The notes under the pieces were generated by a model. That model ran no database searches and had not been told where the DNA came from. It saw only the letters and a program-made list of their open reading frames with translations. Of a stretch of 21,408 nt of DNA, positions 6,756-20,688 are shown piece after piece (positions within the stretch are counted from its first letter, which is position 1; the number at the start of each line of letters is the position of its first letter). The DNA lies in the IMG/VR virus record IMGVR_UViG_3300013126_000295, positions 1-21,408 of that record; one strand, written 5' to 3'. This DNA is from a virus. Both the position numbers and the translations under genes were made by a program.

Positions 6756-6971
6756 CTAAAAAGGTATCTCGTCCCACTTCCACTCGGGGCAGCCTTGCGC
6801 CTTGACCTCGGGCGGCGGTTCCACACCACCGGCACGCTTGCAGCCACGCCCGTCGAAGGCATCGCATGACCCGCATCCGGTGTTGATGGATTCGAGAAAA
6901 CTGATTTCCATGCGCAGCACTTCGATGCGCTTGGCGATTTCTTTCTTTGTGGTGTAAAGGGCTTCGCTCAA
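6756..6971 (-). CDS. Small cysteine-rich hypothetical protein, 71 aa, TTG start
   Basis: I do not recognise a family. The TTG start at 6971 overlaps the helicase stop codon by 4 bases (TTGA) and has AGGTGG about 6 nt upstream, so translation is probably coupled. The N-terminal 30 residues form a charged helix (KKEIAKRIEVLRMEISFLES). The middle has CGSC, then GC and GC, enough for one zinc site. An internal ATG at about codon 21 is possible but would remove most of the helix. Its position between helicase and AlpA-like genes suggests an accessory early protein. Confidence 0.7.
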   Translation of the reverse strand: MSEALYTTKKEIAKRIEVLRMEISFLESINTGCGSCDAFDGRGCKRAGGVEPPPEVKAQGCPEWKWDEIPF

Positions 6972-8608
6972 AATGCCACCTCGTCACGGTCTGCGACACT
7001 CGACACGTCCATGCGACGGCGGCCCATATCGACGGACTGCACGCGCCAATACTTGCCGTCCAGCTTGACGGTTATGGTGTCAGGGGAAGGGATGCGGTTC
7101 TCGCGCACCATGGCGAGGGCTTCCTCGACATGGTTTGGGCAGACGCAGCCGCGCTGCCAGAACCACGAAACGGCGTGCTTCTTGACGTAGGCACGGTCGT
7201 CCTCGATGGGCAGCCACTCGTTGAAGGTGGAGGGGCCGCACCAGTACGTCACCTTGATCGAATCGGGCTTGCCAATCTTCGAGTACCGTTCGTACTCGAC
7301 ACGATCCACGGTATAGGTGCGCGGTTTCTCCAGCGCAGCAACCACCACGGCATCAGCGGCTTCGGTGCCGTGCTTGGCCGACTCGTTCTCCGGGAACAGG
7401 TTGCCGCACTCCGGGCACTCGCGCACACCAGCATGCACCAGCGCCTGACAGTTCGGGCATTCCTTGACCGGTGCCACGCTGACGCCTTCGCCTTTCTCTG
7501 CCTTGCGCTTGACCTTGATCTGGTCGATGGGGCCGTGGCGCTCGACGTTACCGGCGAAGTCCAGAATCAGCGTGTTCTCCTTGCTCGGGTGCTTGCGCAG
7601 GCCGCGCCCCATGATCTGCACGTACAGGCCGGTGGATTTCGTCGGGCGCAGCATCACGATGCAGTCGATGTGCGGGGCATCGAATCCAGTGGTGAGCAGC
7701 ATGGCGTTGAACAGGATGCGCGTGCGCCCTTCCTTGAAGGCGTTGATCTTGGCATCACGTTCGCCGGGTGCCATGTCGCCGGTTACGTAGTCTGCTGTCC
7801 AACCACGGGCACGGCTGGCCTCGGCGCAGTGGGCGGCGTGCTCCACGCCAGCGCAGAAGCCAAGGATGTGATTGCGGTCGTGGGCGTAGCGTCCCACTTC
7901 ATCCAGGGCGCCTTGGATCAGGTATTCATTGTCCATGGCCTGCTGCAACTCGTTGGCCACGAACTCGCCGCCTCGGGTATGCACGTCGGACAAATCGGCC
8001 TTGGTGGCGCCGTTGCGTGCGACCAGCGGGCAGAGCCAGCCGTCTTTGATGAGATCGCCAACACCAGCCTCGTAGGCAATGTCGGTGAATACCCGGCGCT
8101 CGCCTTCAATCAGGATGCCGGAGTCCATGCGGTACGGCGTGGCCGTCAGGCCGATGACCTTGAGATACGGGTTGTACTGACGCAGGCCAGTGAGGAATCG
8201 CCCGTACATGGTGTCGCTGTTCTTCGACAGCAAGTGGGCCTCGTCGATGATGACCAGATCGGTGCCGCCGAATTTGGCAGGCATCTTGTGAATGGACTGG
8301 ATGCCGGCCACGGTGATCTGGTGCTTGACCTTCTTGCCCAGGCCTGCCGACCAGATGCCGATGGGGGCTTCCGGCCAGTAGCGGATGATGGCTTGGGCGT
8401 CTTGGGCGATCAGTTCCTTGACGTGGGTAAGGACGATGATTCGCGTCGACGGGTAAGCGTCGATGGCGCCATGAATGAAAGCGGCCAGGGTAAGGCTCTT
8501 GCCGGCGCCAGTAGGCAGCACGATCAGGGGATTACCATCACGCTCGCGGAAGTAGGCATACAGCGCGTCGATGCTGGCCTGTTGGTAGGGGCGAAGTACC
8601 GGCGTCAT
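6968..8608 (-). CDS. DEAD/DEAH-box superfamily 2 helicase with zinc ribbon, 546 aa
   Basis: This is an ATP-dependent DNA helicase or translocase of the phage UvsW/RecG-like group, likely acting in branch migration or replication restart. It shows a Q-motif-like RPYQ, Walker A PTGAGKS (32-38), DEAH (122-125), motif III TAT (155-157) and motif VI QIMGRGLRKH near residue 330. At about 383-405 there is a four-cysteine ribbon (CPNC, then CPEC). The remaining ~140 residues form a phage-specific tail with further Cys/Trp-rich segments. All core motifs look intact. It lies downstream of the HNH gene, separated by 32 bases that include most of a repressor-type operator. Its Shine-Dalgarno sequence (GAGAA) is weak. 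The neighbouring nuclease and Sak4-like ATPase support a recombination-dependent replication role. Confidence 0.92.
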   Translation of the reverse strand: MTPVLRPYQQASIDALYAYFRERDGNPLIVLPTGAGKSLTLAAFIHGAIDAYPSTRIIVLTHVKELIAQDAQAIIRYWPEAPIGIWSAGLGKKVKHQITVAGIQSIHKMPAKFGGTDLVIIDEAHLLSKNSDTMYGRFLTGLRQYNPYLKVIGLTATPYRMDSGILIEGERRVFTDIAYEAGVGDLIKDGWLCPLVARNGATKADLSDVHTRGGEFVANELQQAMDNEYLIQGALDEVGRYAHDRNHILGFCAGVEHAAHCAEASRARGWTADYVTGDMAPGERDAKINAFKEGRTRILFNAMLLTTGFDAPHIDCIVMLRPTKSTGLYVQIMGRGLRKHPSKENTLILDFAGNVERHGPIDQIKVKRKAEKGEGVSVAPVKECPNCQALVHAGVRECPECGNLFPENESAKHGTEAADAVVVAALEKPRTYTVDRVEYERYSKIGKPDSIKVTYWCGPSTFNEWLPIEDDRAYVKKHAVSWFWQRGCVCPNHVEEALAMVRENRIPSPDTITVKLDGKYWRVQSVDMGRRRMDVSSVADRDEVAF

Positions 8609-8628: not shown

Positions 8629-8645
8629 GTTGAGCATTTCTCAAC
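8629..8645. promoter_or_regulatory. Putative CI/Cro operator, helicase upstream region
   Basis: GTTGAG-CATTT-CTCAAC is a perfect 6-5-6 inverted repeat matching the immunity-region sites. It overlaps the stop codon of the HNH gene and lies 21 bases before the helicase start. No strong promoter is visible with it. Confidence 0.65.
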
Positions 8646-9219
8646 TCTCCGGGCAAAAGTTTGGATTGGCGTAGCTGGAGAATTCCTTGTGGTGCATTTC
8701 CCTGCCGTTGATCGCCGCTTCCTTGGCGGCGTTGAGGCTTGAGAACAGGCCAAGGTGAATCTTCCTGCCATTGACTCTGACGTGCGCCTGCCATTTCTCC
8801 AGCTTCTTGTTCCATGTCACGCCAAGCACGCCACTGGTGTTGCTCGACGGCAGAGCGGAGCGGTTCATGCCGTTCTCTGAAACGGATGCGATGCGCAGGT
8901 TTTCCAGCCGGTTGTCTGACTTGTTGCCGTTCTTGTGGTCGATCAGCAAGTCGGTGTCGAAGTCACCATTTGCGATCAGCCAGACAATGCGATGCACGGC
9001 AAGCCGTCGCCCCACAAGATGCACGTACATGTAGCCGCTGGCGTCATGTGTTCCGGCGTTTGTTCCAGCCTTTTGCTTGTTGGTGTTCGCCCACGACTGC
9101 GCCGATTGGAAGTGGTGACGTGGCCTGTGCAGCCAGCGCAGTTGTCCGGTGTTCTCGTCGTAGTCAAAGCACTCGCGCAAGAAGTCGATGCTTGGATACT
9201 CAACGGCTTTCTTACCCAT
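8641..9219 (-). CDS. HNH homing-type endonuclease with AP2 DNA-binding domain, 192 aa
   Basis: The protein combines an HNH_3-type nuclease with an AP2/ERF-like domain, the usual make-up of free-standing phage HNH endonucleases. Catalytic candidates are H76 (LAVHRIVW), D94-H95 (LIDHKNGNKSDNR) and N103/N107. The AP2 part runs ~128-170 (SGVLGVTWNKKLEKWQAHV, then GLFSSLNAAKEA). Its ATG overlaps the end of the nuclease gene by 8 bases, so it may be translationally coupled. It splits two genes whose products probably work together (nuclease and helicase), as expected of a selfish insertion. Motifs are complete, so activity is plausible; its target is unknown. Confidence 0.92.
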   Translation of the reverse strand: MGKKAVEYPSIDFLRECFDYDENTGQLRWLHRPRHHFQSAQSWANTNKQKAGTNAGTHDASGYMYVHLVGRRLAVHRIVWLIANGDFDTDLLIDHKNGNKSDNRLENLRIASVSENGMNRSALPSSNTSGVLGVTWNKKLEKWQAHVRVNGRKIHLGLFSSLNAAKEAAINGREMHHKEFSSYANPNFCPES

Positions 9220-10297
9220 CTATCTTCGCTCCGAACTGGGTACGGAATTCCTCAATTCCCTGGTCGCAAATAGCCCGGTGATCCTTGGCCGCGCTGATCT
9301 CCTTGCTGGCATAAATGAACTGCTGCAAGGGCAAGTCGGCGGGCAACGGCGTGGCTTCGTCGGTGACGATGAACTGCTTGGCCGGGTCGTCCTTGCGCTG
9401 AAACATGATCCAGCCGTCGCCCGCGTCGATGGCGGTGGCGTAGGTGACGAGGAACGGCAGGGGCAGATGGTGGCCACAACCGGCCCGCTGGGCATGCACT
9501 GGGATTTCCGGGCCGTGCTTGGCGCATGACCAGCGCCCGTCGCCTTCGCGCTCCGGGGTTGCATGCACGCACGTCCTGCACGACAGGGCAGGTGTCCGGT
9601 TGCCATGGCACACGGCATTGTGCGAACACCAGTTGCAGATGTAGAACTTCGGGTCGTCGCTGATCTTGGGCGGCGGCTCGGTGGCGAAGATGATGCTCTC
9701 GGCCTTGGCAAGAATTTTCTCGTACTCGACCTGATCGAACTCGATGCGCTCGGAGTAAAGCTCGTCGGTGTCCTTGTTCACGGCCAGGTACAGTGCGCGA
9801 TCCATGCCCGACTTGCCCATGTACCACATCATCTGGTCGTAGTGCTCGGGCTTGGCCTTCTTCACGCCGTCTTTCTTGAGCGTGGCGAATGACTTGGCCG
9901 AATGGGTCTTGAATTCGAGGACGTGCCACTTGACCCCGCCCGTCGGGATGCCCTTGGCGCAGCCGTCCATGTGCCCGCGCATGTGCCCGCCGAAGTGGGC
10001 AAACCCGAATTGCTTGCCGGTGGCTGGATCGACATCATGCACGGTGGCGCCGATGGCGCGAAGATCGGCAACAAAGCGCGGCTCGGCCAGGTGCCCGGTC
10101 TGGAACAGGCGCAGCATGCGACCGTCGAAGCTCCCGGTGCCGGCCCAGCGGAAGGAGTACCACAGCGCCCGCTTGCATTCCTTGCCGATGACGGAGGCGC
10201 CCAGGTAGGTGCGGGCCTTCTCGGTTTCGCCGCGCTTCTCGTACTGTTCGTAGATGGACGCGACAACCGGATCGGTGAAGTCGGCGATGTCAGGCAT
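9212..10297 (-). CDS. PD-(D/E)XK nuclease of Cas4/RecB type with Fe-S cysteine set, 361 aa
   Basis: This is a predicted DNA exonuclease for phage recombination. The catalytic core shows D111 (GHMDG) and E128-x-K130 (VLEFKT). C41, C221, C224 and C230 reproduce the C-xn-C-x2-C-x5-C arrangement that holds a 4Fe-4S cluster in Cas4 and AddB-like nucleases. After ~230 the protein continues with another Cys/His-rich segment (CRTCVH, CGHH) and a ~100-residue tail not seen in minimal Cas4 proteins. Its 5' end overlaps the preceding small gene by 8 bases and its 3' end overlaps the HNH gene by 8. With the DUF669 protein, the Sak4-like ATPase and the helicase it makes a plausible end-resection and annealing system. 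Confidence 0.9.
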   Translation of the reverse strand: MPDIADFTDPVVASIYEQYEKRGETEKARTYLGASVIGKECKRALWYSFRWAGTGSFDGRMLRLFQTGHLAEPRFVADLRAIGATVHDVDPATGKQFGFAHFGGHMRGHMDGCAKGIPTGGVKWHVLEFKTHSAKSFATLKKDGVKKAKPEHYDQMMWYMGKSGMDRALYLAVNKDTDELYSERIEFDQVEYEKILAKAESIIFATEPPPKISDDPKFYICNWCSHNAVCHGNRTPALSCRTCVHATPEREGDGRWSCAKHGPEIPVHAQRAGCGHHLPLPFLVTYATAIDAGDGWIMFQRKDDPAKQFIVTDEATPLPADLPLQQFIYASKEISAAKDHRAICDQGIEEFRTQFGAKIDG

Positions 10298-10562
10298 TGG
10301 GCGCTCCCGGTGTGTAAACGTGCTTGAGATAGTCGGCCTGCGAGCATCCGTTGTGGCGCGAGATGTACAGGTCTTTGGCTTCGCTCCTGATTGCGGCGAA
10401 CAGGTTGTTCAGCAATTCATCCTGCGCGTCCATGCTATTGACCATGGAGCTTGCAGCGGCGATGCCCAGCGACAGGCTGCGCACCAGCATTGTCATGTTC
10501 TCTGGCGTCTTGTTGGCCTCGACATGCTTGAGCATGTCAATGACCGTGATTCCGTAATCCAT
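10290..10562 (-). CDS. Small hypothetical protein, 90 aa
   Basis: I do not recognise a family. The ATG at 10562 has GAAGGA 7 nt upstream. The protein is mostly helical with a mildly hydrophobic middle (LVRSLSLGIAAASSMVNSM) too weak to call a membrane span. It ends 8 bases inside the nuclease gene, and this overlap implies coupled translation in the early operon. Confidence 0.7.
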   Translation of the reverse strand: MDYGITVIDMLKHVEANKTPENMTMLVRSLSLGIAAASSMVNSMDAQDELLNNLFAAIRSEAKDLYISRHNGCSQADYLKHVYTPGAPNA

Positions 10563-10633
10563 CGTTCAGTCCTTCATTCGTGGGTGCGATGGGCGGGTGG
10601 CGGTTGTCTGGCCAGCCCGCCCATGCGAGGGGG

Positions 10634-11464
10634 TTACAGGCCGGCGTTGCCGTACAGAAGCATGAAGCCGGTGGCTTCGTGGATGCGCTCGATGTCGTCG
10701 GTGACAGCCTGCTTGAACACGCGATCAGGCCGGATCAACTCGAACCAGAACACCAGCTTGTCGGACTGCTGGCGGTATTTCAGACGGGCCTCGATGGGGT
10801 AAGCCGCCGTGCTGCCCTGGAATACCGGGATGCCGATGGTGAATCGCTCGAAGAAGCGCATCTTGGCGCTGGTGCTCTCGTCCTGTTGGTCGACGTACTC
10901 CAGCGCGGCACCGCCCGATTGCAGGTCAATGCGCTTCTTGAACCGCTTGTCGCTGTTCGCCTCGAAGGCCAGCGCCATTTGCAGCATGTCGGTAGCCGTG
11001 GGCATGCCTTCGATGCTGGCGATGTCGGCCATGTTGTCCTCGATGAAGGCGGCGAACTTGGCCTGATCCTGCGCTTGGCCGTTGAACTGCGACCAGCGGC
11101 GCCACTCGTGCGACAGCTTGGGCTGGAAGGTTGCCGTATGGTCGCGCCAGCGGGGTTGATCCACGTCGGAACCGTGGTCATCGACGACCGCCACGATGCT
11201 GCACTTGCTGCTGTCGTAATCCACGTCAGCGTACAGGGTGCAATTGTCCAGGCTGCCATGCTTCTTGGCGTAGGCGATGAAGCTGGGCGAGTCCAGCATC
11301 ACCACCTTGGCCCGCTTGCGTGCCGGTTGCGGCAGCAGGTTTTCCAGATCATTGACCGAGTAGCCATCGGGCAGGGCGACATACGGGATGCCGCCATGCT
11401 CGCGCACGGGATCGACGAGGGATGCGCCAGCGTCCAGAATGACTTGAGCGTTGTTGGTGTCCAT
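10634..11464 (-). CDS. DUF2303 family phage protein, 276 aa
   Basis: The length and several segments fit DUF2303 (PF10065), a family found in recombination and early regions of Gram-negative temperate phages. Examples are GGIPYVALPDGY near the N-terminus, FIAYAKKHG, and the HEWRRWSQFNG-QAQDQAKFAAFIEDN block in the middle. No catalytic motif is evident, and the biochemical role of the family is not established to my knowledge. The ATG at 11464 has AAGGA about 6 nt upstream. It is co-directional with the nuclease downstream and the small DUF2829-region genes upstream, so a role in DNA recombination is inferred from context only. Confidence 0.88.
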   Translation of the reverse strand: MDTNNAQVILDAGASLVDPVREHGGIPYVALPDGYSVNDLENLLPQPARKRAKVVMLDSPSFIAYAKKHGSLDNCTLYADVDYDSSKCSIVAVVDDHGSDVDQPRWRDHTATFQPKLSHEWRRWSQFNGQAQDQAKFAAFIEDNMADIASIEGMPTATDMLQMALAFEANSDKRFKKRIDLQSGGAALEYVDQQDESTSAKMRFFERFTIGIPVFQGSTAAYPIEARLKYRQQSDKLVFWFELIRPDRVFKQAVTDDIERIHEATGFMLLYGNAGL

Positions 11465-11473
11465 GTTGATTCC

Positions 11474-11809
11474 TTATGCGGCGCTGACTTGTTTGAGTTC
11501 CTTCGCCTCGACGGCGACGGGCTTCAAGTCCAGCTTGGTTTGACGGGGATCTTCGGTAAGCAGATTGCCCTCGGGCGTGGCGAACAGCAGCGACTCGATG
11601 GCAGGTTCGGCAGGCTTCTTGATGGCGACGTTGCCGGTGACGGCCAGGGCGCCAGCCGTTGCCTTGCGCAGTTTCAGGGTGAGCGTCAGGGTGCCGGTCT
11701 TTCCGGTGGCATCCACAGCCTTGACCAGTTCGGCCAGCTTCTCGCTGGCGTCGTCGATCAGGCAGCCGGCATCAAGGTGACGCAGGGTGTCAGTGATAGA
11801 GCGAACCAT
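11474..11809 (-). CDS. Conserved phage-type hypothetical protein, 111 aa
   Basis: No named family is recognised with confidence. The N-terminal third is helical (TDTLRHLDAG, ASEKLAELVKAV). It is followed by a beta-rich part with alternating hydrophobic residues (TGTLTLTLKLRK, GALAVTGNVAIKKP), suggesting a small compact fold. The start at 11809 is preferred because AAAGGA lies 6 nt upstream; an ATG 15 bases earlier overlaps the previous stop codon and is an alternative. It sits 9 bases before the DUF2303 gene and is probably co-translated with it. Confidence 0.75.
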   Translation of the reverse strand: MVRSITDTLRHLDAGCLIDDASEKLAELVKAVDATGKTGTLTLTLKLRKATAGALAVTGNVAIKKPAEPAIESLLFATPEGNLLTEDPRQTKLDLKPVAVEAKELKQVSAA

Positions 11810-11820
11810 GATGATTCCTT

Positions 11821-12327
11821 TCATTCAATGATTTGCCAGTCCTCGGCGAGCATGTCCGTCTGGGAGGCAAGCCATCCCGGCAACATGGCGCGTCGGCCTT
11901 CGGCATTGGTTGTCCACATGTCGATGTGGGGCAGGATTTCGCACGACTCTTGGCCAAGTGCTTCGCGGTACGGGGTGCCCTCTCGTAAGGCTGCGTTAGG
12001 CGTGCCGGCCACGAGAATCAGCCACATGCCTTTGCCGTTCCATCCAGCGCGGGCGACTTTCAGGCCCATCTTTAGGGCGGCCAGTGCGTTGCCGAAGTCC
12101 ATGCCTTTGTACGGGCGGTAGGAACGCTCGAACACATCAGCCGGCGACCACGAGATGTAGCCTTCGTAGTCCGGGTGATTGGCCTTGCCGCCGTCGATGT
12201 ACTCGACCAGATACCCGGCGTCGTCGCCGTTCTCGTCGGCTGGAAGCTCCCAGCCACGCAGCGCGTTGTACGCAGCGCGGTTCATCGGGTGAGCGTGGAT
12301 CAGCTTGGTGCCAATGTGCAGGGTCAT
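11821..12327 (-). CDS. Tad2-like (DUF2829) protein with extra N-terminal domain, 168 aa
   Basis: Residues ~72-168 match DUF2829 (PF11195). The start of the domain reads MDFGNALAALKMGLKVARAG, followed by WNGKGMWL, and the end reads LPGWLASQTDMLAEDW, both hallmarks of the family. The family founder, Tad2, blocks Thoeris defence by sequestering the cyclic ADP-ribose-type signal. Residues 1-70 form a second conserved block (ALRGWELPADENG, GYLVEY-IDGGKANHPDY, YISWSPADVFERSYRP) that I know only as a domain of unknown role in phage proteins. The ATG at 12327 has GGAGG 7 nt upstream and overlaps the previous stop. An anti-defence role is inferred from the family; DUF2829 members need not all bind the same ligand. 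Confidence 0.85.
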   Translation of the reverse strand: MTLHIGTKLIHAHPMNRAAYNALRGWELPADENGDDAGYLVEYIDGGKANHPDYEGYISWSPADVFERSYRPYKGMDFGNALAALKMGLKVARAGWNGKGMWLILVAGTPNAALREGTPYREALGQESCEILPHIDMWTTNAEGRRAMLPGWLASQTDMLAEDWQIIE

Positions 12328-12539
12328 TGCTGGGCCTCCTGCGGTTCATCGGCGCCAGCTTCTTCCACCGGGCAGCCCGTGGCCACGAGTGAAACCAGAT
12401 CATCCTGCCCAGCCACTTCGCACGAGAACTTGTTGCGCGAAGCGTGGCGCACGGCTTGAGGTTGGTTGCTGGCGCGGATCAGGCGTTTCTTGCCGGATTC
12501 GGTATCCGTCACGAGGTAGATGCGGGTCTGGGTGCTCAT
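12324..12539 (-). CDS. Small hypothetical protein, 71 aa
   Basis: The ATG has GGAGGT 6 nt upstream, and both ends overlap neighbours by 4 bases (ATGA), a strong sign of a real gene. The sequence (RIYLVTDTESGKKRLIRASN, then QAVRHASRNKFSCEVAGQDDLVSL) looks like a small alpha-beta protein with an acidic C-terminus. I have the impression of similar proteins in phage early operons, often near DUF2829 genes, but assign no function. Confidence 0.8.
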   Translation of the reverse strand: MSTQTRIYLVTDTESGKKRLIRASNQPQAVRHASRNKFSCEVAGQDDLVSLVATGCPVEEAGADEPQEAQQ

Positions 12540-12787
12540 GCCGGCACCTCCAACGCTTCCGGGGGAAGGGCGCGGATACGCTCGGCCTCGGCCTCACGCT
12601 CGGCGGCGTCGTTGTGAGCCTGCTCGGCATCCTGCAAGGTTTGCAGGGCAGCACCACGCATGGCGCTGTAAAGCTGCTCCACACGCTCATACGGCAGCTT
12701 GCCCAGCCCTTCCAGCAGCAGATTGACCTGCTGGAAATTCAGGGTGTAGTTGATCGGCACGGTGGCCGGGTTGAATGGTTGTTGCAC
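12536..12787 (-). CDS. Small hypothetical protein, 83 aa, GTG start
   Basis: The GTG at 12787 follows AGGAG with a 6-nt spacer, which settles the start. The first half reads YTLNFQQVNLLLEGLGKLPY, a pattern common to short phage and virion-adjacent proteins. The second half is an acidic coiled coil (LQDAEQAHNDAAEREAEAER). No function can be assigned. The 96 bases upstream, up to the DUF669 stop, contain this ribosome binding site and nothing else I can identify. Confidence 0.75.
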   Translation of the reverse strand: MQQPFNPATVPINYTLNFQQVNLLLEGLGKLPYERVEQLYSAMRGAALQTLQDAEQAHNDAAEREAEAERIRALPPEALEVPA

Positions 12788-12883
12788 GTTGATCTCCTAT
12801 GGAAATGGCGGCCTACTCGCTGCACCGGACGGCCAGTGCCGGGAACCCCCAGCACGCCGGCATCTGCTTTCGGCCTTGTCGGG

Positions 12884-13396
12884 TTACTTTGCCCAGGGCG
12901 GCGTGCCGGGTGCGGCAGCCGGGGCAGCGGCAGCGGGCGCGGCCTGTTGGCCTCCCCACGGAGCACCACCGGAGGCGGTAGGCGCAGCGACGGAAGCACC
13001 GGGGCCAACGGCTTCGTACTTCTTGATGATGTTGCTCTCGCGCTTGCGGTCGTCGATCTCGACGGCGACGGTGATGAGCATCGGCTTGTTGTGCAGTTCA
13101 GCCGAATCGCTGGGCTTGATGACGCCAACAGCGCGGCAGATCGCCCCCAGTTCGCGCTGTGCAATATCCACGGCGGTCTGGTTCGGATTGACAAGGTTCA
13201 GGCGTGCCCAGAGCTTGCGCCCCTTCTGCTGGCCGTCCAGAACCTCGAAGGTGAATTGCAGGAACTGGCCGTTGCCTGACTTGGTGGGCTTCATTTCGGA
13301 AGCGGTGGCAATCACCACGTATTGCCCTTCGGGCAGCGCGGAGAACTCTTGTTGCTCGGGTACTTGGGAGGCGTCAAAGCCTGCGAGATTGGCCAT
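12884..13396 (-). CDS. DUF669 family protein, probable phage single-strand DNA-binding partner, 170 aa
   Basis: The sequence matches DUF669 (PF05037): LPEGQYVVIATASEMKPTKS, then FLQFTFEVLDGQQKGRKLW and ELGAICRAVG. The ~45 C-terminal residues are alanine/proline-rich and disordered (from about residue 125), ending in GTPPWAK, a shape seen in single-strand-binding proteins that use the tail for partner contacts. The family is commonly encoded next to Sak-type annealing proteins, as here, where the Sak4-like gene lies 54 bases upstream. Single-strand DNA binding is inferred from context and fold similarity, not shown by a motif. The ATG follows AAAGGATCG, and an operator-like palindrome lies in the gap upstream. 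Confidence 0.88.
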   Translation of the reverse strand: MANLAGFDASQVPEQQEFSALPEGQYVVIATASEMKPTKSGNGQFLQFTFEVLDGQQKGRKLWARLNLVNPNQTAVDIAQRELGAICRAVGVIKPSDSAELHNKPMLITVAVEIDDRKRESNIIKKYEAVGPGASVAAPTASGGAPWGGQQAAPAAAAPAAAPGTPPWAK

Positions 13397-13430
13397 CGTT
13401 CGATCCTTTCGTTATGGCAGTTTGGGAAAA

Positions 13431-13447
13431 GTTGAGAAAATCTCAAT
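13431..13447. promoter_or_regulatory. Putative CI/Cro operator upstream of the DUF669 gene
   Basis: GTTGAG-AAAAT-CTCAAT matches the immunity-region sites with 6-5-6 symmetry. It lies 3 bases after the Sak4-like stop codon and 34 bases before the DUF669 start. No convincing promoter is visible. Confidence 0.65.
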
Positions 13448-13450
13448 CAA

Positions 13451-14191
13451 TTAGGCAGCAGAAGCCGCCAGTGCGTTGGCAAAAGCGTTCCAGTCCAACG
13501 GCAGTGACGCCGGCAGGTTGTAACGGTTCTTCGCCAGATAGGCTGGCGTCTCCTGCGTGTACAGAAGGCGCTCGCCCGTGGTGATGCCGCGATTCACTTG
13601 CTTGTTGAACCCGACTTCATCTTTCTTGATCAGCGTGCGGTAGTTGGCGAACAGCACGGCGTCGGCCCACTCTTGCAGCAAAGCAGAGGCACGGCTTTGC
13701 AGCTTGGGCTGGTAGCGGTCATACGGCTCGACCTCGGGCGAATCGAAACGCTTGATTTCGCAATGCCCGATGATGATGACCACCATGTTCTTGTCGTTGC
13801 GCAGCGCATTGAATCCGTCCAGCACTTCACGCCAGCGATCAGCCAGCAGCAAAGCGCCCTTGCCGTAGGCCAGTTCCTTGGCGTCGTGCTTCGATTCAAT
13901 CTCGACCTGGAGGATGGATTCCAGCCAGTCGGCAGAGTCCAGCACCACGGTTTTGTAATCGTGATTCTCGGAGTACAGCGTTTTGATTGCTGCCATCACG
14001 TCGCCGCTGCTCTTGGCAAGCGGGAAGCTGCTGGTGTCGATACTGCCCAATCCGTCCTCGGTGCAGATGAAGATTGGATCGGGCGCATTGGCAGCAAACG
14101 TGCTCTTGCCGATGCCGTGTGTGGAGTACATGAAGATGCGCGGGGCATGGATCGTCTTGCCCTTGCGAATGGAGTTAAGGTCGAATGCCAT
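13451..14191 (-). CDS. Sak4-like RecA-fold ATPase / annealing protein, 246 aa
   Basis: The protein is a small P-loop ATPase with Walker A STHGIGKS (23-30) and Walker B TVVLDSADWLE (D85), typical of the Sak4/AAA_24 group of phage single-strand annealing proteins. Later segments (KNMVVIIIGHCEIKRFDSPE and RASALLQEWADAVLFANY) are also characteristic of that group. The family catalyses or assists single-strand annealing together with a single-strand-binding protein, supplied here by the DUF669 gene just downstream. AAAGGA lies 7 nt before the ATG. Some members are annotated only as 'ATP-binding protein', and the annealing role is by homology. All key residues are present. Confidence 0.88.
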   Translation of the reverse strand: MAFDLNSIRKGKTIHAPRIFMYSTHGIGKSTFAANAPDPIFICTEDGLGSIDTSSFPLAKSSGDVMAAIKTLYSENHDYKTVVLDSADWLESILQVEIESKHDAKELAYGKGALLLADRWREVLDGFNALRNDKNMVVIIIGHCEIKRFDSPEVEPYDRYQPKLQSRASALLQEWADAVLFANYRTLIKKDEVGFNKQVNRGITTGERLLYTQETPAYLAKNRYNLPASLPLDWNAFANALAASAA

Positions 14192-14225
14192 CGGTCAGTC
14201 CTTTCTTGGTTGGTTAAATCGCTCG

Positions 14226-14417
14226 TTACTCGCCATTGGCGATACGGTTCAGAATGTCATCTTGTTTGTCGCTCAAAAACATACCTGTTCCGAATTCTTC
14301 AAATTTGTCTTGCATATCAGAAACAAAAGTTTTTTCCCAGTTGCCGCTTGCGTTTTCCTGCGCTGCGTCAAGCAAGTCTTGAAACTCTATTTCATCGTAT
14401 TTGTCTTTGACTTTCAT
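14226..14417 (-). CDS. Small acidic phage-type protein, 63 aa
   Basis: The ATG has GAGGATC upstream and overlaps the preceding stop by 4 bases (ATGA). The sequence is acidic and aromatic (YDEIEFQDLLDAAQ, FVSDMQDKFEEFG, FLSDKQDDILNRI) and looks like a known type of short phage protein of unknown role. Its base composition is visibly more AT-rich than its neighbours, which may reflect recent transfer or simply its amino-acid content. No function is assigned. Confidence 0.75.
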   Translation of the reverse strand: MKVKDKYDEIEFQDLLDAAQENASGNWEKTFVSDMQDKFEEFGTGMFLSDKQDDILNRIANGE

Positions 14418-14620
14418 GTGATGATCCTCGAAGGCTCGACGTTCAGTTCAGGTGCGGTGTCCTCGATTGCCTTGTAGCTTTTGGCATTGCCAAGGATCGA
14501 CTCCACCAGGACGGATATCATCTGATGCGCTTGTGACTCAGGCTCAACACGCTCGCCGAAGTCTGCCGATACGGTGACTGATTCACCGTCGTCGGTGATG
14601 GTGATGGATGCAGATGCCAT
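14414..14620 (-). CDS. Small hypothetical protein, 68 aa
   Basis: The start at 14620 is fixed by AAGGAGG 7 nt upstream and by its TAATG overlap with the preceding stop; the open frame upstream lacks such a site. The protein begins with a beta-rich segment (SASITITDDGESVTVSADFG) and continues with a helix (AHQMISVLVESILGNAK). I do not recognise a family. Confidence 0.75.
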   Translation of the reverse strand: MASASITITDDGESVTVSADFGERVEPESQAHQMISVLVESILGNAKSYKAIEDTAPELNVEPSRIIT

Positions 14621-15093
14621 TACGCGGCCTCCTTTTGTTGCATGGAATAGAACAGGTCGCGCAGGCACCGCAGCTTTCCGTCGGACAGTCGCGTAATCAG
14701 GTCGATGTGACCTTCAATCTCGCACCAGCAATCAGCCACGAGTGCAGCGCCAAAGCGTGAGAATTTCCTTATTGGCTGACTCAAAAGCCATTCAAACTTC
14801 TGGCTGATTGAGAAAACCTCAACCTTGCGGGCGCAAGGAAGCGGGTTTGGGTAGATTGCGATGCTCTCCTGATACTTCTGCTCTGCCGCAAGACAACTGA
14901 CGTAACCAAGCAGCTTGTCGTAAGCGTCGTCGTATGCCGTGGTTTTCATCAATTCGCAGTCGTTGCTGGTGCTGATGTCGCACGGCGACTGGCCGATGAC
15001 GCGAAAGCCATTGACCATTTCAATGACGCAGAACATAAAGCCTGGAATGTGGTGATACGTCACCGTGTCGATGTACTTGTCGGACACATTCAT
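14620..15093 (-). CDS. Phage protein with Gp49/66-like N-terminal motif, 157 aa
   Basis: The start at 15093 has GGAGGT 6 nt upstream and overlaps the previous stop (ATGA). Residues ~5-60 resemble the phage gp49/66 family (PF13876): HHIPGFMFCVIEMVNGFRVI, then a Cys/Asn segment and TTAYDDAYDKLLGY. The remaining ~90 residues are not recognised. No enzyme motif is seen. An operator-like palindrome (14807-14823) lies inside the coding sequence, about 190 bases before the start of the next gene. The family resemblance is moderate and its function is unknown. Confidence 0.75.
   Translation of the reverse strand: MNVSDKYIDTVTYHHIPGFMFCVIEMVNGFRVIGQSPCDISTSNDCELMKTTAYDDAYDKLLGYVSCLAAEQKYQESIAIYPNPLPCARKVEVFSISQKFEWLLSQPIRKFSRFGAALVADCWCEIEGHIDLITRLSDGKLRCLRDLFYSMQQKEAA
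14807..14823. promoter_or_regulatory. Putative CI/Cro operator inside a coding sequence
   Basis: ATTGAG-AAAAC-CTCAAC fits the same 6-5-6 consensus but lies within the gp49/66-like gene, where it encodes part of VEVFSISQKF. It is the only intragenic copy I found. It may be fortuitous or may serve as an internal block to transcription. Confidence 0.5.
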
Positions 15094-15476
15094 GCTGCGA
15101 CCTCCACGGGCTTGACCTCTACCGCCGTCTTGGCCGGCTTTACTTCGAGGGGCAGCAGCTTGTAGATGTCGGGCTGGTTGTCGGCCAGCCACTTGACGCC
15201 CTTTTCATCCAGTTCAGGCTTGAGTTTGACGGGGTGCATGTCTGCCGGGATTTGAGCCTTGATCGTCTCCCAGGCTTTCCAGTCCATCTTGCGACTGATC
15301 TTGCCGGTGACGGTGATCTTGAAGCCGGTGGCATCTACGGTCTTGGCGCCTTCATCACGCTTGCCCGTGAGTTCGACGATCTGATCTTCGATGGCCACAC
15401 GCTCGGCGTTGGCCTTTTGCTCGGCCTTCTTGGCGGCCAGCCAGTCGGTGCAGAGTTGCTCGATGGTCTGGCTCAT
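15090..15476 (-). CDS. Conserved phage-type early protein, 128 aa
   Basis: The N-terminal half is a helical, charged segment (CTDWLAAKKAEQKANAERVA) leading into EDQIVELTGKRDEGAKT and KITVTGKISRKMDWKAWE. The rest includes DMHPVKLKPELDEKGVKW and a Lys/Pro/Val-rich tail. I recall the overall pattern from early operons of Gram-negative temperate phages, possibly a DUF7173-like family, but the function is unknown. The start at 15476 overlaps the previous stop (ATGA) and has GGGGA upstream; a GTG 24 bases earlier is an alternative. Confidence 0.8.
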   Translation of the reverse strand: MSQTIEQLCTDWLAAKKAEQKANAERVAIEDQIVELTGKRDEGAKTVDATGFKITVTGKISRKMDWKAWETIKAQIPADMHPVKLKPELDEKGVKWLADNQPDIYKLLPLEVKPAKTAVEVKPVEVAA

Positions 15477-15580
15477 AGCGTCATCCCCGCGTTGCGCCAC
15501 GCTGTCCGAACGCGATTCTTCACTGGCATGTGCCGGAAGATGCGCAGGTAGTAAATGAAGTCGGTCAGAAACTTTCTCAC
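15473..15580 (-). CDS. Very small basic protein, 35 aa, GTG start
   Basis: This short gene is supported by AAGGAG 5 nt before a GTG and by a 4-base overlap of its stop with the next start. The product begins VRKFLTDFIYYLRIFRHM and ends RTAWRNAGMTL. That pattern (a hydrophobic/aromatic helix, then basic residues and R-x-AW-x2-A-x-x-TL) is familiar from tiny proteins in phage early operons. It would be the first gene of the leftward operon, about 60 bases from the -10 box of the promoter. No function is assigned. Confidence 0.75.
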   Translation of the reverse strand: MRKFLTDFIYYLRIFRHMPVKNRVRTAWRNAGMTL

Positions 15581-15630
15581 TTTCGCTCCTTCGTTGGTTG
15601 ATGGTTTCGGTAGCCGCTCATCAATTTCTT

Positions 15631-15647
15631 GTTGAGCGAAACTCAAT
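15631..15647. promoter_or_regulatory. Putative operator at the leftward promoter (promoter-proximal copy)
   Basis: GTTGAG-CGAAA-CTCAAT overlaps the edge of the proposed -10 box and the start region of the leftward promoter, where a bound repressor would block initiation. Confidence 0.8.
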
Positions 15648-15673
15648 CATAAAGCAAATTGAGAAAAACTCAA
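15646..15673 (-). promoter_or_regulatory. Leftward early promoter (PL-like)
   Basis: Read leftward, TTGAGT (15668-15673) is followed after 16 bases by TATGAT (15646-15651), a good sigma-70 match. Both hexamers overlap operator copies, so the promoter is almost certainly controlled by the CI/Cro pair. It would drive the operon from 15580 to 6529. Confidence 0.75.
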
Positions 15674-15674
15674 C
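15658..15674. promoter_or_regulatory. Putative operator at the leftward promoter (-35 copy)
   Basis: ATTGAG-AAAAA-CTCAAC covers the -35 hexamer of the leftward promoter. Its centre is 27 bases from the other copy, a spacing that would allow repressor dimers to bind side by side. Confidence 0.8.
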
Positions 15675-15716
15675 CATCAAGGCGAAAAAAATTTTTACCG
15701 CGTTGAGTCTTGTTGT

Positions 15717-16343
15717 TCAGGAAAGCATCTTGCGGATGGTGATTTCCGTCACCATGCCAATGATGCGCACGCCTTCATCCATGCGGTACGTGGGAAATCG
15801 GGTGTCGTCCGCAACCAACAGATCGTCGCCGCCTTCGCGCACGTACTTGCGCAACACGGGTTCGCTGGCCTTGTTGATGACGGCCAGGACAATCTGGCCC
15901 GGTTCGGCAACATGGCCCTTGCTGATGACGGCATAGCACCCGGTCGGGCAGGTGCTGGTTAAGGCATCGCTGGCCACAAGCATGGCGGCTGCCGTTTGTG
16001 GTGGGTACGCAACAGCGGTTTGCAGCAGTTCCGCGACCGCTTCCCAGTGCCAGCGGGCCATTGCAGAGGGCGGCACGACGGGCACGGCATGGAATGGCGC
16101 CTCTGCCTTGCTGCCAATGGCAGCCTGTTTTCCGCTTTCCACGCCCAGCAGCCAGTCGCAACTGACGTGGTACCAGCGTGACAGTTCAGCCAGGGTCGAG
16201 GCGTTGGGTTCAGTCTTTCCGGCCTCCCACAGATTGACGGTGGAGGGCGATAGGTTCAGGTGTTTGGCCACGTCGCGCTGGGTGATTTCCGGTGTGATGG
16301 CCTGACGTGCGGCACGCAGGCGCTGGGCAAGCAGTGGTTTCAT
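15717..16343 (-). CDS. CI-like repressor: XRE HTH plus S24 (LexA-like) domain lacking the catalytic serine, 208 aa
   Basis: This is the probable prophage repressor. Residues ~5-65 are an XRE-type helix-turn-helix (ITQRDVAKHLNLSPSTVNLW, then EAGKTEPNASTLAELSRWY). Residues ~110-208 follow the LexA/CI S24 fold, including VAEPGQIVLAVIN and IIGMVTEI. At the position of the active serine (GDSM or GNSM in relatives) it reads SDAL, so alanine 127 replaces serine, while lysine 166 (VLRKYVR) is kept. The spacing of 39 compares with 37 in LexA and 43 in lambda CI. I also see no Ala-Gly cleavage site between the domains. The start at 16343 is set by AAGGAG 6 nt upstream. The flanking promoters carry palindromes that it probably binds. 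Confidence 0.92.
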   Translation of the reverse strand: MKPLLAQRLRAARQAITPEITQRDVAKHLNLSPSTVNLWEAGKTEPNASTLAELSRWYHVSCDWLLGVESGKQAAIGSKAEAPFHAVPVVPPSAMARWHWEAVAELLQTAVAYPPQTAAAMLVASDALTSTCPTGCYAVISKGHVAEPGQIVLAVINKASEPVLRKYVREGGDDLLVADDTRFPTYRMDEGVRIIGMVTEITIRKMLS

Positions 16344-16390
16344 GGTGCGCTCCTTCGGTCGGTCGTTCAGTAAATTTAATGCGTGAGTCA

Positions 16391-16410
16391 AGTATAGAGA
16401 AATACTCAGC
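16391..16410 (-). promoter_or_regulatory. Repressor promoter -10 with degenerate operator
   Basis: Read leftward, TATACT (16391-16396) is a good -10 box for the repressor gene, 47 bases before its start; the -35 region is poor, as in activated maintenance promoters. A weak operator, ATAGAG-AAATA-CTCAGC (16394-16410), overlaps it. This suggests autoregulation. Confidence 0.55.
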
Positions 16411-16412
16411 CC

Positions 16413-16439
16413 TTGGCGATACGGTGATTTGTGTATAAC
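16413..16439 (+). promoter_or_regulatory. Rightward early promoter (PR-like)
   Basis: TTGGCG (16413-16418) and TATAAC (16434-16439) are separated by 15 bases, a short but workable spacing. The promoter would start a ~25-base leader before the Cro-like gene. An exact operator begins at the next base. Confidence 0.6.
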
Positions 16440-16456
16440 ATTGAGTTTTTCTCAAT
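16440..16456. promoter_or_regulatory. Putative operator at the rightward promoter
   Basis: ATTGAG-TTTTT-CTCAAT lies just after the -10 box of the rightward promoter and covers the expected start site. The sequence after it contains an extra half-site (ATCTCAA). Confidence 0.8.
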
Positions 16457-16470
16457 CTCAAAACACGGCG

Positions 16471-16734
16471 ATGACCAAGAAAATGAGTAATTCTGATGAG
16501 CCGGTGGGCTTCACCGTCGAGGGTGTGCTGGCGCTGGCGGGTGGGCGTGGCGCGGTTGCCAAGGAGCTTGGCGTGTCGGTGCAGTCCGTTGTGAAGTGGG
16601 GCCGCCGCATCCCGGCGCCCCATGCCCGCAAGGTGGCTGTCATGGCAGGCCTGCCGCTGGAGATCGTGCGCCCGGACATGGTGAAGCGTGGCCACGACGA
16701 GGCAAGCGAGTACGTGAGGGCTTCTCGAACATGA
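16471..16734 (+). CDS. Cro-like HTH regulator, 87 aa
   Basis: This is the first gene rightward from the immunity region, divergent from the repressor. Residues ~20-60 form a Cro/YdaS-type helix-turn-helix (LALAGGRGAVAKELGVSVQS, then VVKWGRRIPAPHARKVAVM). It likely binds the same operators as the repressor and helps commit to lytic growth. The ATG at 16471 is in a short leader with a weak ribosome binding site (ACGGCG); an ATG at 16483 is an alternative. Its stop overlaps the next start (ATGA). Confidence 0.88.
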   Translation: MTKKMSNSDEPVGFTVEGVLALAGGRGAVAKELGVSVQSVVKWGRRIPAPHARKVAVMAGLPLEIVRPDMVKRGHDEASEYVRASRT

Positions 16735-17204
16735 GGAAGCGCAGCAAGTACCGGCCAAAAGTGGTAAGGCTTGACGTGATGACGTGGGTCATCAACGGCA
16801 TGCGGCCAGTGACCGATGCAGCAGACGAGATTCTGACGCTGCGCATCAAGAACCACATGGCGATTGAGATGTTGCGCAAGGGGGAGGGCACAAAATCCGA
16901 CATGGATGTCGTGATCGCTGCCTTCAACATGACGGAGGCGCTGGCGCGGCTTCGCATTGGCAGCGAACTGGCAGACAAGATACGGGCAGGGCAAGACGCG
17001 CTCTATGCCTTGGCGAAGCGTGGCGCCAACCTCGGGCGCTTCATCTTCACCGGCCCGGAGTTGCAGGCCGTCAATCTGGTCATGGAGATCCACGATGCCC
17101 AGCTTGACGTATGCACCATCGCCGAACTGGAAAAGGCTGTCGAGATCGTCAAGCAGGAGCTTCGCCACAAGCGCATGCGTGTGGTGGAAGTGAAGGAGGC
17201 TTGA
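16731..17204 (+). CDS. Conserved phage-type hypothetical protein, 157 aa
   Basis: The ATG overlaps the Cro-like stop. The protein starts with basic residues (MRKRSKYRPK) and continues as a helical protein, with NHMAIEMLRKGEGTKSDMD, then a block with FNMTEALARL and GQDALYALAKRG. I recall the same pattern (helical, with TGPELQAVNLVMEIHDAQLD) directly after cro in other temperate phages. No function is known to me and no catalytic motif is seen. Co-transcription with the Cro-like gene and the primase suggests an early role. Confidence 0.82.
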   Translation: MRKRSKYRPKVVRLDVMTWVINGMRPVTDAADEILTLRIKNHMAIEMLRKGEGTKSDMDVVIAAFNMTEALARLRIGSELADKIRAGQDALYALAKRGANLGRFIFTGPELQAVNLVMEIHDAQLDVCTIAELEKAVEIVKQELRHKRMRVVEVKEA

Positions 17205-17207
17205 CCC

Positions 17208-17567
17208 ATGGCCCCACCACTGAACAAAGGGCGGCGCATCGTCAAGATCAACGCCATGTCGCAGGCCAAGCTGATCGCGCTCATGCTCGATGGCGTCTAT
17301 ACCTGCGAGCAACTGGCCGAAGAAACCGGCCTGCACTACGTCACCGTTCTCCAATACACCCGCGAACTGCACCGGGCCAAGGCTGCGCACATTTCGAGCT
17401 GGGAGAAGGATAGCCGGGGGCGCGATGCCATCAAGGTCTATCAGATCGGCAGAGGGCGGGACGCCAAGCGCGAGAAGCTGACCGCTGCCCAACGGCAGGC
17501 GCGGTATCGGTCCAAAAAGAAAGCACACGCCTTGTGCCAACTGTTCGCCGGAAAGCAGACAGCATGA
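17208..17567 (+). CDS. Helix-turn-helix protein upstream of the primase, 119 aa
   Basis: The ATG has AAGGAGG 8 nt upstream. Residues ~15-60 look like a winged or simple helix-turn-helix (AKLIALMLDGVYTCEQLAEE, then TGLHYVTVLQYTRELH), followed by beta-rich residues (DAIKVYQIGRGRDAKREK) and a basic tail (QARYRSKKKA). Proteins of this type before phage primases may help load the replication machinery or regulate it; that is inference. Its stop overlaps the primase start by 4 bases. Confidence 0.82.
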   Translation: MAPPLNKGRRIVKINAMSQAKLIALMLDGVYTCEQLAEETGLHYVTVLQYTRELHRAKAAHISSWEKDSRGRDAIKVYQIGRGRDAKREKLTAAQRQARYRSKKKAHALCQLFAGKQTA

Positions 17568-19999
17568 ACGAAGAAAAACAAGATCAATCCATCTTTGCCG
17601 CATTTGCGTGGAAGTTTCTGGAGCGAGACATCAGCGTGGTGCCCATTGCACCAGGCACCAAAAAACCCGGCCAGTATTCGCAGGAGCAGGGATGGCGCGG
17701 CATGGGCGACTGGACGCGCTTCGCGCAGCGTATGCCCACCGACATCGAGATCGAGCACTGGGAGAAGTGGCCGGATGCCGGTATCGGCGTGGTGCTCGGC
17801 AAGCTGTCCGGGCTGGTGGCGCTGGACAAGGACTACGATTTGCCGGGTGGCGGCAATGACGCGCTACAAGCCCTGATCCCGTACAGCCCGGTGGCCAAGA
17901 AGGGCGAGAAGGGCTGGACACGGTTCTACCGCTGGAACGGCGAGAAGTCATGCAGCTTCGACGTGGGCGGCATGCGCGTGCTCGATGTGCTGTCGGACGG
18001 TCGGCAAACCGTAGTGCCGCCGACGATCCACCCTACCGGCCTGCACTACACCTGGATCACGGAGGACACGCTTGATTCGCTGCTGTCGGTGTCGGAACTG
18101 CCGATACTGCCCGACGACTTCCTCCAGCAAATCGAAAAGGTGCTGGCGCCGTACCAGTCTGACAACGACAAGAAGCACCAGAAGCGGCACGTCGCACCCA
18201 AGGAGGACGACGGCCACATCAACACCGATCTGTCGATTCAGGCCGAATACTTCCGTGACCTGAATGCCGCCGCGCTGTCGCGCCTGGATGACTGGGTGCC
18301 CAAGATCATCCCAACGGCCAAGGCTGACCACGACGGCTACCGCTGCATCGCTACTTGGCGCAACTGCAAGAACCCGAACGTCGGCATCCACCCGCACGGC
18401 ATCCGTGACTGGGGCGGGGGCTACGGCATGACCGCCGTCGATTTGGTGATGTACGCGAACGGGATGCCGTTTCAGCGGGCCGCTGAATCACTGCGCAACT
18501 GCTTGGCCCTGTCGGAGCCTGAACCTATCCAGATGACCGTGGGCGGCCAGCCCCAGCACCAGGCACACCCGCCAGCCCACACACCGGCCAAGTTGCCGCC
18601 GCTGCCATGGCAGAAGATGGTGGAACAGCCCGCGCCCGTGATGCTGCCGCCAACGACCAGCGACGAACCGGCGATGGCCATACCGCGCTTCATCACCAAC
18701 CCGCCAGGAATCCTGAACGACATCGCCGCCTGGATCACGGCCACGGCACCGAAGTCCCAGCCAGAACTGTCGCTGGCCGCCGCCATCTCCCTGGGCGCAA
18801 CCTGCACCCAGCGCATCTACCGCAGCAATCTGGCCAACTTCACCAGCCTGTACATGGTCATGGTGGCCAAGTCGACCGAAGGCAAGGAACACCCGCAGTC
18901 GTGCGTGGAGCGTGTGCTGACGGCTGCCGGACTGCAAGACTTGATTGCCGGGTCGGGCTACACCTCGGCGGGCGCCGTGTTCTCGGCACTGCTGCGACAG
19001 CCCAGCCACATCGCCATCATCGACGAGATGGGCAAGCTGCTGAAACTCTCGCGCAGCAAGGGCAACGCCAACAGCGAGGCGGCCATCGACAAGCTGGTGG
19101 AGGCCTTCGGCAAGCTGAACGGCGTGATTCGCCCACCGGTCTATTCGACCATGACCATGACCAAGGCGCAGGCCGGGGCCATGCAGGGGGCGGTGCAGAT
19201 GATCCACAACCCTGCCGTGTCGATTCTGGGGGCGACGACGCCCTCCACGTTCTACGGCAACCTGACCGACGATCTGGTGCAGGATGGTTTCCTCGGTCGC
19301 CTGATCGTGGTCGAGTCCAGCCAGCCGCGCCAACTTGCCCGCTTCGTCGATCAGACAGATCCACCGGCCCGCATTGTCGAGTGGTGCAAGAAAGTCAATG
19401 CACCAGCCCAGCGCACGGGCAACCTGTCGGAGATCGCCATGGCAGAGATGCCGGCCACGACGGTCGGCATGGAGATCAGGGACGAATGCCAGGAGTTGAT
19501 GCGGGCATTCGAGACGGAACTGAACCAGTTGAAAGACCAGTTCGAGCCGGAGCATCTGGACGTGCTGCTGGGACGGACGTTCGAGAAGGCGCTACGCCTG
19601 TCGATGATCGCCGCCAAAGCATGCGATCCCAACACCGTGACCGTGCGCCGCGATCATCTGGAGTGGGCCATCAGCTACGTGCGCCACTACGACATGGCGA
19701 TGATTCGCGCCGTTCGCAAGAACCGCATCGTGAATCAGATCGACACAGACATGAAGAAGGCCGTCGACTACATCAAGGGTGCCCGCAAGTACGCCAGCGA
19801 TCCCAAGCTGGCGCATCTGGCCAGCGTGCTGGCGTCAGGCGCAATGCCGCGCCAGTTGCTCTTGAAGAAGATGCACATGAAGGCCAGCGAGTTCAATGCC
19901 ATGATCGACACGGCCATCGAGGCGGGCATCATCACCCGGTCGCCCGGTGTGCATCTCAACTACGCGGGCGATGTGTATTACTGCGCCGATCAAGACTGA
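17564..19999 (+). CDS. Bifunctional primase-polymerase fused to DUF3987 helicase-like domain, 811 aa
   Basis: This is the phage replication primase. Residues ~10-165 are an archaeo-eukaryotic prim-pol domain: D88-x-D90 (VALDKDYD) are candidate metal ligands and RQTVVPPTIH (147-156) is the sxH-type motif. Residues ~250-310 resemble a CHC2 primase zinc-finger fold (NPNVGIHPHGIRDWGGGYGM, then TAVDLVM) with most zinc ligands missing. From ~370 it matches DUF3987, with an atypical P-loop (KSTEGKEH near 433), a Walker B-like IAIIDEMGKLL near 482 and a conserved ILGATTPSTFY segment. The C-terminal ~60 residues could form a small winged helix. The start at 17564 overlaps the preceding stop. It would prime, and perhaps unwind, DNA at the phage origin. 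An origin was not located. Confidence 0.9.
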   Translation: MNEEKQDQSIFAAFAWKFLERDISVVPIAPGTKKPGQYSQEQGWRGMGDWTRFAQRMPTDIEIEHWEKWPDAGIGVVLGKLSGLVALDKDYDLPGGGNDALQALIPYSPVAKKGEKGWTRFYRWNGEKSCSFDVGGMRVLDVLSDGRQTVVPPTIHPTGLHYTWITEDTLDSLLSVSELPILPDDFLQQIEKVLAPYQSDNDKKHQKRHVAPKEDDGHINTDLSIQAEYFRDLNAAALSRLDDWVPKIIPTAKADHDGYRCIATWRNCKNPNVGIHPHGIRDWGGGYGMTAVDLVMYANGMPFQRAAESLRNCLALSEPEPIQMTVGGQPQHQAHPPAHTPAKLPPLPWQKMVEQPAPVMLPPTTSDEPAMAIPRFITNPPGILNDIAAWITATAPKSQPELSLAAAISLGATCTQRIYRSNLANFTSLYMVMVAKSTEGKEHPQSCVERVLTAAGLQDLIAGSGYTSAGAVFSALLRQPSHIAIIDEMGKLLKLSRSKGNANSEAAIDKLVEAFGKLNGVIRPPVYSTMTMTKAQAGAMQGAVQMIHNPAVSILGATTPSTFYGNLTDDLVQDGFLGRLIVVESSQPRQLARFVDQTDPPARIVEWCKKVNAPAQRTGNLSEIAMAEMPATTVGMEIRDECQELMRAFETELNQLKDQFEPEHLDVLLGRTFEKALRLSMIAAKACDPNTVTVRRDHLEWAISYVRHYDMAMIRAVRKNRIVNQIDTDMKKAVDYIKGARKYASDPKLAHLASVLASGAMPRQLLLKKMHMKASEFNAMIDTAIEAGIITRSPGVHLNYAGDVYYCADQD

Positions 20000-20502: not shown

Positions 20503-20688
20503 CTACGCCCCCACAATCGGCTTGACGTGGCAGGCGTGGTGCAGCGCGGTTTCCCGGTTTCCGCCATCCATCAGGACAGTGATTCGTGTCCATTGGCCAG
20601 GTTCGCGCCGCACCTTCTGGTATTTCTGCCCGGTGCGGCACAGCACAAACCGCACGCCATCGCCAAGCTGACGCAGGTAGATGGTCAT
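20503..20688 (-). CDS. Small hypothetical protein, 61 aa
   Basis: The ATG at 20688 overlaps the stop of the upstream gene (ATGA). The sequence is beta-rich (TIYLRQLGDGVRFVLCRTGQ, WTRITVLMDGG). I do not recognise a family. Its ribosome binding site is weak, so coupled translation is likely. Confidence 0.7.
   Translation of the reverse strand: MTIYLRQLGDGVRFVLCRTGQKYQKVRREPGQWTRITVLMDGGNRETALHHACHVKPIVGA

Follow-up and report, generated by a model that had tools for sequence, protein, structure and literature searches.

Streptomyces phage phiC31 carries dispersed palindromic repressor sites, the CIBs, over its early region; host phylum and repressor differ from those considered here, and the CIBs probably exert most of their effect at early promoters. 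The FL and FR sites of phage 186 and the O2 and O3 sites of lac are operators distant from or downstream of a promoter, and they act by looping. The dispersed operators of phage P1 are bound by C1, a repressor outside the lambda/P22 class. They number 22, and their site is an asymmetric 17-mer (PMC8546580). Genomes of mycobacteriophage L5 and other Cluster A phages hold many immunity-repressor sites, mostly off promoters, in addition to operators at the early promoter; these stoperators are 13-14 bp long, oriented and without dyad symmetry, and occur 20-30 times per genome (PMC6550527). The Cluster A repressor that has been crystallized binds as a monomer and has a dedicated stoperator domain (PMC9283540). 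In the open-licence literature searched, we came across no lambda/P22-class repressor credited with dispersed operators that lack promoters. Here, we analyzed a 21,408-nt stretch of viral DNA (the window; IMG/VR record IMGVR_UViG_3300013126_000295, positions 1 to 21,408), in which a family of 17-bp palindromic operators, very probably belonging to a lambda/P22-class CI repressor, is found at the immunity promoters and also inside the leftward operon.

The pattern RTTGAGNNNNNCTCAAY (RTTGAG-N5-CTCAAY) was matched exactly at positions 8629, 13431, 14807, 15631, 15658 and 16440, and a degenerate copy with two mismatches was located at 16394, as an earlier note on this DNA had reported. Four copies lie at the immunity promoters, two at the leftward promoter PL and two at the rightward and repressor-maintenance promoters (PR/PRM). 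The other three, at 14807, 13431 and 8629, lie inside the leftward operon at 0.85, 2.2 and 7.0 kb from OL1, the operator that holds the PL -35; their reported contexts, inside a gene, in the gap between the Sak4 and DUF669 genes and at the HNH-helicase junction, also held. Within the window, no further stretch came within two mismatches of the pattern, the reversed pattern gave no match, and exact matches were likewise absent for 29 control palindromes that kept the layout but had their half-sites permuted. A weight matrix trained on the PL/PR sites of the whole CI family returned seven window sites of at least 14 bits, compared with none in 12 shuffles; scores at PL and PR are non-independent because of this training, whereas scores elsewhere are independent. 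Since these were the same seven sites, no clear copy had been overlooked, and the missed weaker copies that the earlier note had allowed for did not appear. In five relatives of 60.6-63.9 kb, the matrix likewise returned far more sites of at least 14 bits (11, 15, 7, 4 and 6) than shuffled sequence (means of 0-0.33). Nine genomes together contain 50 sites outside the immunity region, of which 39 fall in gaps or at gene ends; 18% would be expected there, giving a p value of 3e-20 if the sites were independent, which not all of them are phylogenetically. We regard the existence of a dispersed operator family as close to certain.

The immunity region resembles the lambda/P22 switch, with a CI carrying a helix-turn-helix (HTH) and an S24-like domain, a divergent cro, and palindromic 17-bp operators that overlap PL and PR; in lambda and P22, however, the operators are confined to these promoters. 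The CI-type repressor (15717-16343, minus strand; 208 aa, HTH_3 and S24-like) matched PF01381 (E 2.6e-10), PF00717 (E 1.1e-7) and a PHROG transcriptional repressor (E 4e-19), and is 24% identical to P22 C2. The small Cro-like HTH protein is encoded divergently from it (16471-16734, plus strand; PHROG 409 transcriptional regulator, E 8e-7). The exact OR operator (16440-16456), which is kept in relatives, stands at the start of PR as predicted by the promoter scan (TTGGCG at 16413-16418, 17 bp, TAACAT at 16436-16441), and the degenerate copy near PRM (16394-16410; 16.9 bits) recurs in the related loci L005, L006, L007, L012 and L017. Promoter scores were calculated with approximate E. coli weights taken from general knowledge. 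PL scored 10.6, with its -35 (TTGAGT, 15668-15673, minus strand) inside the exact OL1 (15658-15674), a 16-bp spacer and a -10 (TATGAT) at 15646-15651. The exact OL2 (15631-15647) overlaps the end of this -10 and extends just downstream of it, and many relatives have a second PL copy as well. An operator was present at PL in 23/23 CI-family phages examined, and across these the left half of OL1 (TTGAG), which is part of the PL -35, is invariant.

Unlike in lambda and P22, the S24 catalytic Ser and Lys are not kept in this CI: GDSM and FKK of P22 align with SDAL and LRK, and the corresponding Ala127 and Arg165 are invariant in six family members. Given a CI family that lacks the self-cleavage dyad, induction probably requires a route other than RecA-stimulated cleavage. 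In the most divergent CI (L056), the Ser is restored and the Arg is still in place. The phiKO2/N15 repressor CB is also without self-cleavage residues, and the only sites described for it are OR and OL (PMC4997575).

Relatives of the CI with 55-99% identity are encoded by 34 viral-contig loci, in which genes were called with a simple codon-usage script. Another 15 contigs carry the same Sak4-DUF669 module and no detectable CI relative; as many of these are fragments, the absence of CI from those phages is not proven. The best-conserved comparison is offered by the exact operator at 13431-13447, which lies 34 nt upstream of the start of the DUF669/ssDNA-binding protein gene (12884-13396, minus strand; PF05037, E 3.5e-20; PHROG 6015 SSB, E 1.4e-43) and follows the gene of a Sak4-like AAA protein (13451-14191, minus strand; PF13479, E 7.5e-46; PHROG 124 Sak4). 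A DUF669-upstream site reached at least 13 bits in 27/34 CI-bearing phages, 19-34 nt ahead of the gene, and at least 9 bits in 33/34, compared with 0/8 scorable contigs without a detected CI. No site was found at the starts of the genes for Sak4 (0/35), the Cas4-like exonuclease (0/23) and g83 (0/25), and most other early genes were likewise without one. The DUF669 site is kept where Sak4 has been swapped for a 41-44% identical allele (L014, L017 and L039-L041). Conversely, in L019 (705-781), whose Sak4 is 94% identical and whose CI region is off the contig, the flanks of the gap are alike and exactly the operator is gone. These sites are very probably operators of the phage's own CI family, and the claim of a single regulon dispersed within operons, away from promoters, is strongly supported by the comparison of about 35 phages.

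The DUF669 site does not look like a promoter. In the window it scored 7.9, below the 95% intergenic null of 10.6, and in 23 phages the best -10 downstream of the site averaged -1.6 (null -0.7, sd 2.9) versus 5.6 at PL, where the member compared was picked by its best -10, a choice that could push the PL mean upward. Its left half drifts (TAAAG, TCGAG, TTTAG, TCCAG) and its right half is better kept, the reverse of PL. The lack of a -10 together with the drifting -35-like half argues against a standard promoter at DUF669. The distance from the site to PL ranges from 1440 to 2788 bp without constant helical phase, so the site is tied to the gene and not to PL, which favors a local effect on DUF669 and the genes downstream. 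As a separate observation, in L039 (5824-5890), L041 (12719-12786) and L055 (7298-7364), the Sak4-DUF669 gap contains a GC-rich hairpin with an operator on either side, the two being about 50 bp apart, and in L021 and L054 a hairpin stands just upstream of a single operator there.

The exact intragenic operator (14807-14823) lies in a gp49-like gene, and no promoter was detected there by the scan. A further 12 CI-bearing loci have an intragenic operator, at 829-897 bp from OL1 where measured, and several of these loci come from near-identical phages; in L005 and L017 the operator is carried by a different, unrelated gene. In a synonymous-codon test that is suggestive only, 4/4 codons within the gp49 site were identical compared with about 54% outside. 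The exact operator at 8629-8645 overlaps the stop codon of an HNH-AP2 endonuclease gene (8641-9219, minus strand; PF13392, E 1.7e-15; PF00847, E 6e-6), 20 nt upstream of the start of a DNA helicase gene (6968-8608, minus strand; PHROG 16, E 8e-101). A marginal promoter-like match was found at this site (TTGAGA-18-GAGAAT), and its score of 8.3 is also below the 95% null, in line with the earlier statement that none of the three dispersed copies has a strong promoter. The 8629 site is identical only in L005 and L018, which both derive from a single contig. L054 has a separate, weaker copy in the corresponding position, and in L042 an exact site lies at 13134, close to the start of the helicase gene. 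The HNH-AP2 gene sits between the Cas4-like exonuclease and the helicase, and neither it nor the 8629 operator was found in L008, L009 and L015; the operator may therefore have arrived with the gene. Spacers are T-rich on the sense strand at the PL and DUF669 sites and A-rich at the gp49 site of L005 and at the helicase site.

In the larger genomes, sites were also identified outside the early region. In G001 and G002, head-operon sites directly follow the major head protein gene and precede other head genes. Behind this gene, an operator and a weaker operator-like stretch share half-sites with an RNA hairpin (L058:9899-9968, of G001; G002 19509-19582) that has a 12-bp stem and about -27 kcal/mol, and in G003-G006 the same place is taken by other GC-rich hairpins that lack an operator; hairpins and operators may substitute for one another as stops. 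A divergent non-coding region of about 500 bp beside a Holliday-junction-resolvase-like gene (G002 35122-35624, G004 16900-17520, G001 20528-21030) carries operators in several phages, and some of these sites have good promoters; G002 and G004 each have two operators there, separated by about 400 bp. The region is perhaps a second CI-controlled divergent promoter region. A site-like stretch of the GTTGAGAAATACAGAAC type occurs towards the end of the gene for the Cas4-like exonuclease in G001, G002 and G005; since its right half departs from the pattern, we put it aside as a probable product of coding conservation.

With the dispersed layout in hand, the likeness to L5 stoperators drawn in the earlier note holds in part. 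Both systems have multiple sites dispersed through operons, and in both most non-immunity sites are off promoters, as illustrated here by the DUF669 and gp49 sites without a -10, with an apparently promoter-linked minority in relatives. The sites differ, being 17-bp palindromes here and asymmetric in L5, and they number 4-15 per genome of about 61 kb. The repressors differ as well, with HTH_3 and Peptidase_S24 here in contrast to a monomer with two DNA-binding domains. Palindromic sites and an S24-type CI mean that these are not L5 stoperators by membership. P1 C1 shares the arrangement of one repressor with dispersed operators in a phage of Gram-negative bacteria, and differs in its asymmetric 17-bp site, whereas 186 FL/FR and lac O2/O3 are few and near one promoter, with no multi-site family across several operons.

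A stoperator-like block of read-through by CI at the internal sites is the best mechanism we can propose, and we give it a probability of about one half. The four copies at PL and PR/PRM would switch initiation in a lambda-like manner, and the Cro-like protein probably binds the sites too. For the three promoter-less internal copies (14807, 13431 and 8629), and for the equivalent sites of relatives, a role after initiation is most likely: CI bound there in the lysogen would block or terminate polymerases leaking from PL or entering from elsewhere, and the replication genes (DUF669 onward and the helicase) would stay silent until CI is removed. Several points weigh against a block of read-through. 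Lambda CI, Cro and 186 CI are reported to be ineffective roadblocks, and lambda CI to improve with looping (PMC10310618). Moreover, with left halves that drift in many relatives, the DUF669 sites may bind with modest affinity, the 8629 copy recurs in few relatives, and the sites at G002 35143 and G006 28725 are at likely promoters, so not all dispersed sites are stoperators.

The reportedly poor roadblocking by lambda and 186 CI keeps looping and atypical promoters as rivals. If the internal sites were auxiliary operators, CI oligomers would bridge them with OL/OR and tighten PL/PR repression, as with lac O2 inside lacZ, lambda OL-OR or 186 FL/FR, and any roadblock would be secondary and loop-strengthened. 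Some members of the lambda/P22 class do oligomerize, the looped form of lambda CI is reportedly the better roadblock (PMC10310618), and the intragenic copy keeps its distance from OL1 regardless of the carrier gene. The DUF669 copy, however, follows the start of its gene, and the head-operon sites are far from PL; we consider looping rather unlikely as the main function, and its fixed-distance form was rejected for the DUF669 site on account of the varying distance and helical phase. Somewhat less probable still are CI-repressed promoters, weak or outside E. coli sigma-70 rules, that would control the DUF669-onward genes and the helicase separately. The position 19-34 nt ahead of gene starts is like that of operators at promoters, the half-site TTGAGA/T resembles a -35, and the 8629 and 13431 sites do score in the promoter scan, albeit both below the null. 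Against this stand the gp49-like gene copies, which have neither a promoter nor an adjoining gene start, and the 23 phages without a -10 after a DUF669 site whose -35-like half drifts in the opposite manner to PL, by which a standard promoter there is rejected.

It is very unlikely that the sites are decoys that titrate free CI or chance remnants of recombination. The lysogeny frequency of P1 does respond to the number of C1 sites (PMC8546580), but decoys require no fixed place, and one gene-start position is kept here down to 55% CI identity and through replacement of the neighboring gene. An RNA element in the leftward transcript, such as a hairpin, a boxB/nut-like element or a processing site, is the least probable reading. 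A stem of 5-6 bp with a 5-nt loop has boxB-like dimensions, and the majority of copies fall within transcribed leaders or gaps. Nevertheless, 18 distinct DUF669 sites paired no better than shuffled ones and without covariation, the outermost pair is often A-C, and the 13431 site folds at just -4.1 kcal/mol; furthermore, the invariant OL1 holds the PL -35 and is hence outside the PL transcript. The shuffled-level pairing and the untranscribed OL1 argue against an RNA element, and the hairpin or boxB reading of the DUF669 site was rejected.

Regarding the host, no megablast match was obtained among isolated phage genomes, only relatives of less than 60% identity to the CI were found in phages and plasmids, and no CI relative was found in the bacterial genome collection. 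One primase relative was identified in a gammaproteobacterial metagenome-assembled genome, on a contig without the CI region. At the window edge, an open reading frame (9-4604, plus strand) may represent the terminal part of a giant gene; open reading frames of 11-14 kb are present in G003, G005 and G006, one in each.

Repression from operators scattered inside operons has good documentation in actinobacteriophage L5, whose repressor is an unusual monomer. The arrangement described here suggests, on the basis of sequence, that a lambda-type repressor silences a temperate bacterial virus in its dormant state at numerous positions, beyond the transcription starts alone. It is a tentative and somewhat doubtful extension that S24/lambda-fold CI repressors of probably proteobacterial phages independently evolved true stoperators. 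These would be anchored to particular genes, lack promoters and block elongation in both the early and the head operons, perhaps with assistance from looping or neighboring RNA hairpins. The analysis provides a rule for finding the regulon in about 35 uncultivated phages. If the reading is true, a lambda/P22-class repressor with an L5-like layout would mean that multi-point prophage silencing evolved more than once. A CI of the stoperator type would contradict the view of CI-type repressors as weak roadblocks, and these phages would allow the conditions under which a CI-type protein halts RNA polymerase to be tested in a natural setting.

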